Assembly: GCA_902592445.1 (NCBI GenBank)
Contig: CACJEN010000001.1
Coordinates: 124,001-188,000 of the forward strand
Source: an uncultured Pelagibacteraceae bacterium
GTDB lineage: Bacteria; Pseudomonadota; Alphaproteobacteria; Pelagibacterales; Pelagibacteraceae
DNA length: 64,000 nucleotides
Direction: 5' to 3'
Shown: one piece after another, positions 26,496-32,930 of the stretch
Numbering within the stretch: position 1 is the stretch's first letter
Layout of the letters: every line of letters begins with the position of its first letter
Position numbers and translations under genes: made by a program
Notes under the pieces: model-generated
What the model was told of the DNA's origin: nothing
Database searches by the model: none
What the model saw: only the letters and a program-made list of their open reading frames with translations

Positions 26496-28331
26496 GTGGA
26501 ACGAATAATTACAAAATCATTTGCTAGATTAATGGGTCGTGGGATCCATAGAGGCTTTATAACCCACGAGGAATTAAATAAATCTCTTGGAAAAAGAAAC
26601 TTATCTAATGAAAATTTAGCACAGGCCTTCATTCATATATTAGATGAGAGCATAGTATTAGTTGAAAAAAAATCAGACTACAAAATTTTAAAAAAGAAAG
26701 ACTCTTCGTCTAAAGAGGAGGGAAAAACTATTGAGAAAAGTGACGACCCTATCAGAATGTATTTAAGAGAGATGGGAGGTGTGGAGCTTTTATCTAGAGA
26801 AGGTGAGATTGCAATCGCAAAGAGAATTGAAGCCGGTAAAGATGTAATGCTTAATGCTCTTTCGCAAAGCCCAATTACGGCTCAACAATTTTTTGAGTGG
26901 AATACGAAACTTCAAAATGATGAAATTTTAGTAAGAGAAATTATAGATATTGATACTAATTACATGGAGGACGAAGATACCGGACAAAGTGCAAAGCAGA
27001 AAAAATCTGACAATGGCAATGAGGAAGGCGAAGAACAGAGTTCTAATTCAAGTGAAGATGATGAATTTAATCCTACTTTAGCTGCAATGGAAACTGAAAT
27101 TAAACCAAAAGTATTACAAACTGTCCATAATTTAACAAAAGAATACAATAAGCTTATTAAGTATCAAAAAGAAAAAATTGATTGTTCTTTAAACTCACAA
27201 GTTTTTTCAAGTTCAAAAGAAAAAAATTACAAAAAAATTGTAGATGATATTTTAGAAAATATAAAATCACTCCAGTTATCTCCATCTGTATTAGAGGAAT
27301 TAGTGCAGAAACATTATGCAGAAAATAAAAAGATCATCTCTCTTGAAGGAAATCTTCTAAGACTTGCAATTGATGCTAAAATTACTAGAGATGAATTTAT
27401 TAAATTTTATGTTGGTAATGAAATAAACCCTAATTTAAAAAGCTTCTTAGATACAAATGAAGTATGGAAAAAATTTTTCCAAAAAAACAAAGATGAATTT
27501 AAAAATATTAGAGAAAGACTTATTGAAATAAGCCATAAACTTGGAATCTCTGTAACTGATTTTAAAAAATTGGTGAGCAGGGTACAAAAAGGTGAAAAAG
27601 AATCTAGAATTGCAAAAAAAGAAATGGTTGAAGCAAATCTAAGATTGGTTATTTCAATTGCTAAGAAATATACGAATAGAGGATTACAATTTTTAGATCT
27701 GATACAAGAGGGGAATATAGGTTTGATGAAAGCCGTAGATAAATTTGAATATCGAAGAGGTTATAAGTTTTCAACTTATGCAACTTGGTGGATAAGACAA
27801 GCAATCACTAGATCAATTGCAGATCAAGCAAGAACAATAAGAATACCAGTTCATATGATCGAAACAATAAATAAAATAGTGAGGACACAAAGGTTAATTT
27901 TAAGTGAATTTGGAAGAGAGGCAACTCCCGAAGAGCTTGCTAAAAAGTTAAGAATGCCATTAGAAAAAGTTAGAAAAGTACTCAAAATTTCAAAAGAACC
28001 AGTGTCATTGGAAAAACCAGTTGGAGATGAAGAGGACAGCAGTTTAGGAGATTTCATTGAAGATACAAAAGCACTAGCTCCATTAGAACAAGCAATTAAA
28101 TCTAATTTAAGTGAAGCAACCACAAAAATTTTATCTACATTAACTCCAAGAGAGGAAAGAGTCTTAAGAATGAGATTTGGTGTAGGAATGAATACAGATC
28201 ACACGCTTGAAGAGGTTGGACTACAATTTTCTGTTACAAGAGAAAGAATAAGACAAATTGAGGCAAAAGCGCTGAGAAAATTAAAACACCCAAGTAGATC
28301 TAAACAATTAAAAAGTTTCTTAGAAAGTTAA
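26496..28331 (+). CDS. rpoD: RNA polymerase primary sigma factor (sigma-70, RpoD)
   Basis: A 611-residue primary sigma factor. Region 1.2 reads [20 protein letters not shown]. It is followed by a long, acidic non-conserved insert ([18 protein letters not shown]). Region 2 has [20 protein letters not shown] and [15 protein letters not shown], which recognises and melts the -10. Region 3 and then region 4.2 close the protein ([20 protein letters not shown], the -35 reader). The start is GTG at 26496. The tRNA-Val gene begins only 2 bp after the stop codon, so tRNA-Val is probably cut out of the rpoD transcript. Confidence 0.97.
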
Positions 28332-28333
28332 TT

Positions 28334-28408
28334 GGGCCGTTAGCTCAATAGTAGAGTACTGCATTGACATTGCAGGGGTAGTTGGAGCGTAACCAACACG
28401 GCCCACCA
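28334..28408 (+). tRNA. tRNA-Val(GAC) with non-canonical D and T loops
   Basis: A complete cloverleaf with encoded CCA: acceptor GGGCCGT/ACGGCCC (7 Watson-Crick pairs), D stem GCTC/GAGT, anticodon stem CTGCA/TGCAG around TTGACAT (anticodon GAC, valine), T stem GTTGG/CCAAC and discriminator A. The loops are unusual. The D loop AATAGTA lacks the usual GG, and the T loop is AGCGTAA instead of TTCRANY, so U54, U55 and A58 are all replaced. All stems are perfect apart from one G-T in the D arm, so it looks functional rather than decayed. It has no room for its own promoter behind rpoD. Confidence 0.85.
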
Positions 28409-28506: not shown

Positions 28507-29409
28507 ATGCATATAAGTAAAAAAATTCTGAATAAATTTAAAAGTAAATTTTTAAAAAAAAAGATTATATTTCCAGATAATATTAATAAATTTATTCCTT
28601 CAATTGAAAAAAACTATAATCATGTAATAAAGAAAAATTACGAACTAAATTACTTAGGCAAATATATAAATTATATTCTTCCAGAATGCTTTAAAAGACT
28701 AAAATATAATTTTTCAAATTTTCCTAAAATACTGGATATTGGATGTGGATATGCTCCAATGTGTTTAGCAGCAAAAATTTTTAGAGATAACTCAAATTTA
28801 AATCAAAAGGACATACAGTACATTGGTATAGATATTCGCGAAGATGCTATAACATACAATAAAAAAAATTATAAAAAATTTAAAAATATCTTATTTGTTC
28901 ATCATAAATCAAATAATGATAGAGACTATATTGGAAACTATAAAAAATTTGAACATAGAGGTTCCAGTCTTCAAATAACTAGAGCAAAAAGCGATGGCTC
29001 TGAATGTAATTACAAAATACCAATTCAGTATAAAGCAGATATACAATGGTCAGGCAGTTTGTTTACACATCTGACATACAATGGTGTTAAAAAAACTTTA
29101 AAATTTGTTTCTAAACATTTAAAAAAAAATGGCTTAAGTATAACCACTTGGCATATAATTGATCCTGAAAGTTTATTTAGCCTTCAAATTGGAATTGCTG
29201 ATAGAAAATTAAAATATGATATGAAAGAATTCTTAACATATTCAAAAGAAAATCCTCTTTTGAATACTGCATATAAAATAGAATACATTAAAAAAGCTTA
29301 TAAATTTGCAGGATTAAAGATTGTAGAAATAATTCATGGTTCTTGGAGAGGTAATAAAAATAATGAGTTTAATTCCGAACAAGACGTGATAATTGCCAGA
29401 AAACTTTAG
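28507..29409 (+). CDS. Class I SAM-dependent methyltransferase, substrate unknown
   Basis: A 300-residue protein. The SAM-binding motif I is KILDIGCGYAPMCLAA at about residue 75, followed by an acidic turn YIGIDIREDAI. A later segment, SGSLFTHLTYNGVKKTLKFV, then LKKNGLSITTWHIIDP, resembles methyltransferases that modify lipids, sugars or small molecules. The first 70 residues are lysine-rich and not recognised. It is the only intact gene between two tRNA genes, with a promoter-like site of its own, and its frame continues after the TAG into a decayed tail (29410-29598). It is probably an accessory or strain-variable gene; that is inference. Confidence 0.75.
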   Translation: MHISKKILNKFKSKFLKKKIIFPDNINKFIPSIEKNYNHVIKKNYELNYLGKYINYILPECFKRLKYNFSNFPKILDIGCGYAPMCLAAKIFRDNSNLNQKDIQYIGIDIREDAITYNKKNYKKFKNILFVHHKSNNDRDYIGNYKKFEHRGSSLQITRAKSDGSECNYKIPIQYKADIQWSGSLFTHLTYNGVKKTLKFVSKHLKKNGLSITTWHIIDPESLFSLQIGIADRKLKYDMKEFLTYSKENPLLNTAYKIEYIKKAYKFAGLKIVEIIHGSWRGNKNNEFNSEQDVIIARKL

Positions 29410-29728: not shown

Positions 29729-29805
29729 GGGCCTGTAGCTCAGTTGGTTAGAGCAGTACACTCATAATGTATTGGTCCCAGGTTCGAGTCCTGGCGGGCC
29801 CACCA
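29729..29805 (+). tRNA. tRNA with CAT anticodon (elongator Met or lysidine-modified Ile2)
   Basis: A canonical 77-nt cloverleaf: acceptor GGGCCTG/CGGGCCC (one G-U), D arm with the normal GG (AGTTGGTTA), anticodon stem GTACA/TGTAT around CTCATAA (anticodon CAT), variable loop TGGTC, T arm CCAGG-TTCGAGT-CCTGG and encoded CCA. It is not an initiator, since it has a paired first base and no GGG/CCC anticodon stem. Elongator Met and Ile2 cannot be separated with confidence by eye. A weak promoter (TTGTAT, 17 bp, TAATAC) lies at 29686-29714. Confidence 0.93.
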
Positions 29806-32566: not shown

Positions 32567-32930
32567 TGCCAGATAAATGACTTATCGCTTTAAGAAATTA
32601 AAGAGGAAAGTCCGGGCTCTACAAAGACACAGTGCCAGTTAATAGCTGGCGGGGGAGACCTCAGGGATAGTGCCACAGAAAATAAACCGCCTTATCAAGG
32701 CAAGGGTGAAAAGGTGTGGTAAGAGCACACCGGCTAAGTTGGTAACAGCTAGCGCATGGAAAACCCCACTGGGAGCAAGACTGAGTAGAGATGACACTGT
32801 TAGAAATAACTAAAAGCAGTCTTTGGCTAGTCATCAGGGTTAGTTGCTTGAGCTTTAAAGTGATTTAAAGCCTAGATAAATGATAAGTTTTAAAGACAGA
32901 ACCCGGCTTATAGTTTATCTGGCATATCCT
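32567..32930 (+). ncRNA. rnpB: RNase P RNA (class A)
   Basis: The catalytic RNA that trims the 5' ends of tRNA precursors. Conserved blocks are present in order: GAGGAAAGTCCGGGCT after the 5' helix, GCCACAGAAAATAAACCGCC, AAGGGTGAAAAGGTG with GGTAAGAGCACACCG, and near the 3' end GACAGAACCCGGCTTATA. The outer P1 helix closes the molecule: TGCCAGATAAA (32567-32577) pairs with TTTATCTGGCA (32914-32924). A -10-like TATATT ends 7 bp before the 5' end. The exact 3' end is uncertain by a few bases. Confidence 0.95.

Follow-up and report, generated by a model that had tools for sequence, protein, structure and literature searches.

The tRNA-Val(GAC) gene and its setting

The window, the whole stretch of 64,000 nucleotides that was analysed, carries a tRNA-Val(GAC) gene with unusual D and T loops directly behind rpoD. 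The features of this region are given below in window coordinates.

26496..28331, + strand: rpoD (sigma-70), whose stop codon ends 2 nt ahead of tRNA-Val(GAC)
28334..28408, + strand: tRNA-Val(GAC), CCA encoded, rewired elbow, the sole copy found in the genome
28347..28353, + strand: D loop AATAGTA, read as A14 A15 U16 A18 G19 U20 A21 (from sequence and alignment)
28366..28368, + strand: anticodon GAC, with U33 and A37 kept
28376..28380, + strand: variable loop GGGTA, with A48 opposite A15 (from alignment)
28386..28392, + strand: T loop AGCGTAA, read as A54 G55 C56 G57 U58 A59 A60 (from sequence and alignment)
28507-29409: methyltransferase-like ORF between the two tRNAs, best Pfam score just below the cut-off
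29729..29805, + strand: neighbouring CAT tRNA with canonical loops
32569-32926: RNase P RNA, bacterial class A, 286 bits

Both ARAGORN and Rfam called 28334-28408 (+ strand) as tRNA-Val(GAC), with an Rfam score of 53.6 bits against a cut-off of 29, which is below the 72.7 bits of the neighbouring CAT tRNA. The cloverleaf was the minimum-energy structure (RNAfold, -28.6 kcal/mol, z -3.29), and its intact stems and encoded CCA are those of a bacterial elongator tRNA-Val(GAC). The gene also retains G19, C56, G57, U33, A37 and A73, the last being a discriminator base that serves as a valine identity feature. It departs from the canonical form in the elbow, where G18 G19 and a TTCRANY T loop are replaced by A18 G19 and AGCGTAA, and where positions 15 and 48 are both A. 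An earlier note, made from the letters of this DNA, had described odd D and T loops on intact stems, which was confirmed by ARAGORN, Rfam, RNAfold and our own reading of the sequence; its remark that the Levitt 15-48 pair is absent (A, A) agrees with sequence and alignment, and its expectation of a poor substrate for the enzymes making T54 and pseudouridine 55 holds by base identity, as there is no U at 54 or 55.

In the genome, which is 84% complete at 1.1 Mb in 22 contigs, 28 tRNA matches were found. All 27 remaining tRNAs of this 84%-complete assembly have T loops starting with TTC, so that the oddity is confined to one gene, as the note had supposed from the neighbouring tRNA. Neither a second GAC tRNA nor any further Val tRNA was found among the 28, which fits the idea of a sole GAC tRNA. 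Because complete relatives show a TAC gene beside a single rewired GAC gene (one canonical Val(TAC) and one rewired GAC in each of G012, G102, G107 and G108, among the matches listed), the Val(TAC) gene of the window genome probably sits in an assembly gap.

In 107 of 127 loci, some genomes being counted twice, the end of RpoD was located, and 99 of these had a spacer of -1 to 32 nt to the tRNA. Given this short spacer in the window and in most loci, rpoD and tRNA-Val(GAC) are likely to be co-transcribed. A scan for promoter-like or terminator-like sites found none between the two genes; downstream of the tRNA, it returned one promoter-like site (mean of 1.7 in shuffles) and no terminator. The distance to the next tRNA, 1320 nt in the window, lay at 47-74 nt for 70 of the 90 cases, and apart from the window copy (L029) the methyltransferase-like ORF had no match in the 127 loci, so the space between the tRNAs looks like an insertion spot. 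Five g8 loci and one g10 locus carry the rewired gene in other surroundings, mostly sugar or cell-surface genes as judged by eye.

Conservation and spread of the altered loops

Among the 43 GAC genes first read, window copy included, the T loop AGCGTAA was present in 42 and the full 75 nt were letter-identical in 34, both fractions being biased upwards since the genes were picked by similarity to the window. The D loop of the 42 was AATAGTA in 41 and AATAGAA in one; the lone exception among the 43, in G037, has canonical loops. A pattern scan found at least 120 stretches with these loops in named genome contigs, and all 80 of the listed loop matches were tRNA-Val(GAC) under the titles Pelagibacteraceae, Pelagibacterales or Candidatus Pelagibacter. 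The exact 16-letter D arm was matched in 4 of 327 genomes of the class, three of them Pelagibacter. A D-arm match outside Pelagibacter, in G856, was rejected as a rewired tRNA because no tRNA lies there.

We aligned 22 distinct Pelagibacteraceae sequences, selected by a pattern that demanded A18 and GC at 55-56, so that this alignment is unable to test 18-55. The anticodon GAC, U33, a purine at 37 and A73 were invariant across the 22 variants. Stem cells were 100% paired, as was 19-56, while 16-59 and 54-58 reached 90.9% each, and for the cloverleaf plus these three pairs 99.2% of cells were standard pairs. Changes on both sides were found at 13 of 21 stem pairs and at 15 of 24 pairs overall. 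When the 24-pair structure was compared with 500 shuffles, which ignore kinship, none equalled it on four of the five measures, and 14 did so on the fifth, the number of pair types. As judged from this alignment, the stems of the rewired gene vary while the new loops mostly stay. A pseudogene, or an error of sequencing or assembly, might be suspected from the Rfam score, lower than that of the adjacent CAT tRNA, but the same loops in many separate genomes, on compensated stems, rule this out for all practical purposes. The earlier note had named canonical loops in relatives, at the same locus, as grounds for suspecting such an error; they do occur, in G037 and G736, but are a minority among the genes read and do not point to an error.

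An anti-consensus scan identified six non-consensus GAC genes in 5 of 399 genomes of the genus. The gene of G792 has A54-U58, A16-U59 and A60, yet retains G18-U55, while that of G242 has A18-G55, yet retains U54-A58. Since each of these carries one swap without the other, the 54-58 and 18-55 swaps are separable. G736 combines canonical loops with stems nearly the same as those of the window gene, and G54-G58 is present in G781 and in one of the two G701 copies. The latter copy (L295), a rewired tRNA-Val(GAC), adjoins a phage-type integrase, and the second G701 copy (L294) is rewired too.

Canonical GAC loops were found in the sister family, in genera g5, g9, g10, g11 and g12, and in 10 of 11 g8 genes (among the matches listed). 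As the sister family and several genera show them, we took canonical loops as the ancestral state. Rewired GAC genes are spread patchily over g1, g7, g8 and g10, and two g7 genomes carry a GAC sequence identical to that of one g1 genome. In some near-complete Pelagibacteraceae of other genera (e.g. G115, G148, G165), a pattern search, which could overlook diverged genes, showed no GAC tRNA. In genus g6, the tRNA-Val(GAC) L268 (G105:C1, near 394515) has C33 in place of U33, with the anticodon loop TCGACAC.

Covariation of the elbow positions

At 18-55, the letters moved from G-U to A-G. These combinations were counted in viral contigs of IMG/VR, using a pattern that fixed the D stem and set the D loop at 7 nt. 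A18 occurred with G55 in 30 stretches having A60 and in 106 lacking it (contig L313 being in both), and with U55 in three; G18 with G55 was found in 0 stretches of the same contigs with the same fixed D-stem pattern. The parsed loci held 86 distinct A18-G55 tRNAs (66 viral, 20 cellular). Clustering at 70% ungapped identity split them into 34 groups, with 19 anticodons overall, so the class is not one lineage. The parsed set also holds A18-U55 in two, A18-C55 in one and U18-U55 in two viral tRNAs; 157 of 644 distinct tRNAs were left out of the parse because their arms could not be parsed, and C54 tRNAs, lost there, were counted separately. Overall, these counts point to strong covariation of 18 and 55.

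At 54-58, U-A moved to A-U or to G-G. The T loop ATCGTNA, with A54 and U58, was present in at least 120 viral stretches, and TTCGTNA loops (U54, U58) in 0 stretches of a matching scan. Stem checks were passed by 88 of the 92 distinct ATCGTNA matches, of which 87 keep GG in the D loop. These loops, which keep U55 (IMG/VR loci L455-L574), belong to Ile(GAT) in 37 and to His(GTG) in 13 of the 88 readable tRNAs. The parsed class with A18-G55 and A60 (n=39) had A-U in 29, U-A in seven and G-G in three, while 65 distinct viral A18-G55 tRNAs found with a plain pattern had U-A (41), G-G (8), A-U (6), C-A (6), C-C (3) and U-G (1). The 389 parsed viral tRNAs also included A-A (10), U-G (2), G-A (1) and U-U (1). 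We read this, too, as strong covariation. Nine viral CAT tRNAs (L303-L306, L308, L316, L318, L323, L327) combine C54 (CGCGCAA, CGCGAAA) and A18-G55 with a C1-A72 mismatch, which we take to resemble initiator tRNA.

The 19-56 pair is unchanged as G-C and invariant in the rewired class, and 16-59 switches between U-A and A-U. In a scan leaving positions 57 to 60 free, a T loop beginning AGC together with a non-U at 16 was found in 11 of 397 family genomes, and all 11 had A16 with U59. Among the 39 parsed A60-class tRNAs, 16-59 was Watson-Crick in 28, compared to 15.4 in shuffles that ignore kinship (p 5e-5). This excess shrinks as relatives are thinned out, from 16 of 25 against 9.0 shuffled at <90% identity (p 0.002) to 9 of 17 against 5.8 at <80% (p 0.06) and 6 of 10 against 3.9 at <70% (p 0.11). 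Canonical tRNAs with 7-nt loops had no such excess (16 of 90 Watson-Crick, 20.6 shuffled). The exceptions among the 39 were three U-U (L300 among them), six G-A and two C-C; those in the 22-row alignment were L291 and L295. Pairing of 16 with 59 is thus likely. The earlier note had held that only G19 and C56 could still pair between the arms: the G19-C56 pair stands, while its exclusivity does not, as the co-varying partners at 18-55, 54-58 and 16-59 had been overlooked.

An alternative explanation is that the D and T loops form a short Watson-Crick helix (U16-A59, A18-U58 and G19-C56, with G57 bulged), unlike the normal elbow. The covariation of 16-59 and the invariant 19-56 pair would fit such a helix, and D/T-loop helices are reported, per the title of a published selection, in laboratory-selected suppressor tRNAs. 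However, A54-U58 accompanies the GG of the D loop in 87 of the 88 parsed phage tRNAs, so 58 tracks 54; in 10 of 39 tRNAs A18 is accompanied by A58 or G58, and 18 tracks 55. As to consecutive pairing between the loops, 19-56 is invariant and 16-59 covaries with exceptions. We consider the helix improbable. Its three-pair form with A18-U58, our initial idea, was dropped because 58 tracks 54 with either G18 or A18.

TruB, the pseudouridine-55 synthase, was looked for by its TruB_N domain and was not found in 29 different Pelagibacter genomes (G000, G012, G037, G102, G103 and 24 more; seven of them single-contig, some merely 55-66% complete), nor in 22 g8, four g9, three g10 and two g12 genomes or in single genomes of g14 and g15. 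It was found in all 14 control genomes, in 4/4 g5, 3/3 g6, 5/5 g7 and 1/2 g11 genomes, and in 7/7 of the sister family. As TruB was not found in Pelagibacter, pseudouridine 55 has probably become dispensable for the tRNAs of this genus. Loss of TruB as the single cause of the swap was rejected. It is not necessary, since G155, G213 and G377 of the TruB-bearing g7 have TruB plus the rewired tRNA, and it is not sufficient, since 10 of 11 and 2 of 2 GAC tRNAs of g8 and g9, in which no TruB was found, are canonical (among the matches listed). TrmFO was likewise not found: eight of eight genomes gave only partial, sub-cut-off matches within frames of 622-640 aa, with one additional weaker match in G061, and we take these to be MnmG.

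Probable function, origin and known elbows

Rewired GAC genes are also present in phage tRNA arrays, and Erythrobacter phage vB_EliS-L02 has a rewired GAC gene (loops AGCAGTA and GGCAGCA) in an unannotated stretch. The window tRNA itself had no match in named phage records at E 1, and eight of nine tRNA stretches from named phage matches were canonical. The ninth, tRNA-Phe of Acinetobacter phage fHyAci03 (L577 380-455), is annotated as a possible pseudogene and has the T loop TGCAATT, i.e. G55. As ARAGORN missed one rewired phage copy and this G55 tRNA carries a pseudogene label, tRNA finders may mis-score such genes. On the evidence of these sequences, the class with a compensated alternative elbow is broader than SAR11.

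The recurrence of the elbow class in phage tRNA arrays and in one Erythrobacter phage also raises the question of whether the gene is a phage import, or an answer to an elbow-attacking nuclease, which spread by transfer with the new elbow as an escape. The patchy presence over g1, g7, g8 and g10, the sequence identity between two g7 genomes and a g1 genome and the copy beside a phage-type integrase are in line with this. However, G736 (canonical) and G792 (rewired) carry their GAC genes ~0.8 and ~1.3 kb downstream of rpoD, respectively, as alleles with near-identical stems, which looks like a change in place, and we regard import or escape as possible but unlikely.

The best explanation, to which we give a probability of roughly 70%, is a working elongator tRNA-Val(GAC), present as a single gene copy, in which substituted tertiary pairs keep the elbow together. 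Here A54-U58 would stand in for U54-A58 and A18-G55 for G18-pseudouridine55, while the G19-C56 pair and purine 57 would be kept unchanged; U16-A59 was probably added, and A60 and an A15-A48 contact may also be involved. The swaps would have arisen as paired, compensatory changes, and the same elbow class recurs in phage tRNAs. The sequence and its conservation, the covariation of the stems and of 18-55, 54-58 and 16-59, and the failure to detect TruB are direct results, whereas we infer contact between the co-varying positions, its geometry, the expression, the charging by valyl-tRNA synthetase and the use on the ribosome. The suggestion of the earlier note that the elbow needs another way to hold was supported, as relatives and phage tRNAs show probable replacement contacts. 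A wider proposal, for which we see about even odds, is that A18-G55, a 54-58 pair of U-A, A-U or G-G and an added 16-59 pair make up a second self-consistent elbow without need of pseudouridine 55 or thymine 54, which recurs in phage arrays and is now the GAC decoder of Pelagibacter.

GTT and GTC make up 520 of the 969 Val codons (54%) in 51 ORFs of the window, so that there is demand for a GAC decoder, although all four GUN codons might in principle be readable by a Val(TAC) tRNA. The earlier note had called the gene essential if it is the only GAC tRNA; this was not borne out, as Val(TAC) coexists in relatives, and it is weakened further because the GAC gene was unseen in some near-complete relatives, with the pattern that may miss diverged genes. 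The same two points, together with the joint change of D and T loops, could suggest that the tRNA has left translation, its elbow avoiding EF-Tu and the ribosome and its valine being donated to another reaction. A non-proteinogenic tRNA would be expected beside a proteinogenic one of the same anticodon, but no second GAC tRNA was found among the 28 of this 84%-complete genome. The anticodon, U33, A37, A73, G19-C56 and all stems are intact over the 22 variants, the A18-G55 elbow spans 19 anticodons and GUU/GUC account for more than half of the Val codons, all of which makes a departure from translation very improbable.

Pseudouridine 55 has been termed universally conserved in tRNA in a review (PMC4810234). 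The elongator tRNA-Val(GAC) proposed here would be a clean natural exception, in a marine bacterium whose pseudouridine-55 enzyme seems to have been lost, and its one-swap relatives would show a pair-by-pair exchange of contacts. Together they provide natural double mutants ready for probing the elbow letters in folding, modification and translocation. A literature search, mostly of freely accessible papers, returned nothing on natural tRNAs of bacteria or phages that carry A18-G55 or A54-U58, nor on this gene.

Staphylococcal cell-wall glycyl-tRNAs are non-proteinogenic and have altered D and T loops, and they exist beside a proteinogenic tRNA that carries glycine as well. The altered loops are shared with the Pelagibacter tRNA, whereas the coexisting proteinogenic tRNA has no counterpart in a second GAC gene found here. 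A selection of the Kotlova type (2007) reportedly yielded, going by its title, suppressor tRNAs with D/T-loop helices. Those would likewise be functional with non-standard loop-loop contacts, whereas the Pelagibacter tRNA is natural and single-copy, with 54-58 co-varying within the T loop. The canonical elbow is described as U54-A58, G18-pseudouridine55, G19-C56 and R15-Y48 (PMC7912444, PMC4810234). The Pelagibacter tRNA shares with it the cloverleaf, the loop lengths, G19-C56, purine 57, U8/A14 and G53-C61, and differs in having A-U at 54-58, A-G at 18-55, A60 in place of a pyrimidine, A-A at 15-48 and no modifiable U54 or U55. Eukaryotic initiator tRNA, for which A54-A58 is described (PMC7912444), has A54 in common with it, whereas the Pelagibacter tRNA has U58 plus an altered 18-55. 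Metazoan mitochondrial tRNAs without an elbow (PMC4810234) also depart from the conserved structure; however, the structure is missing there, while here its contacts have apparently been replaced.
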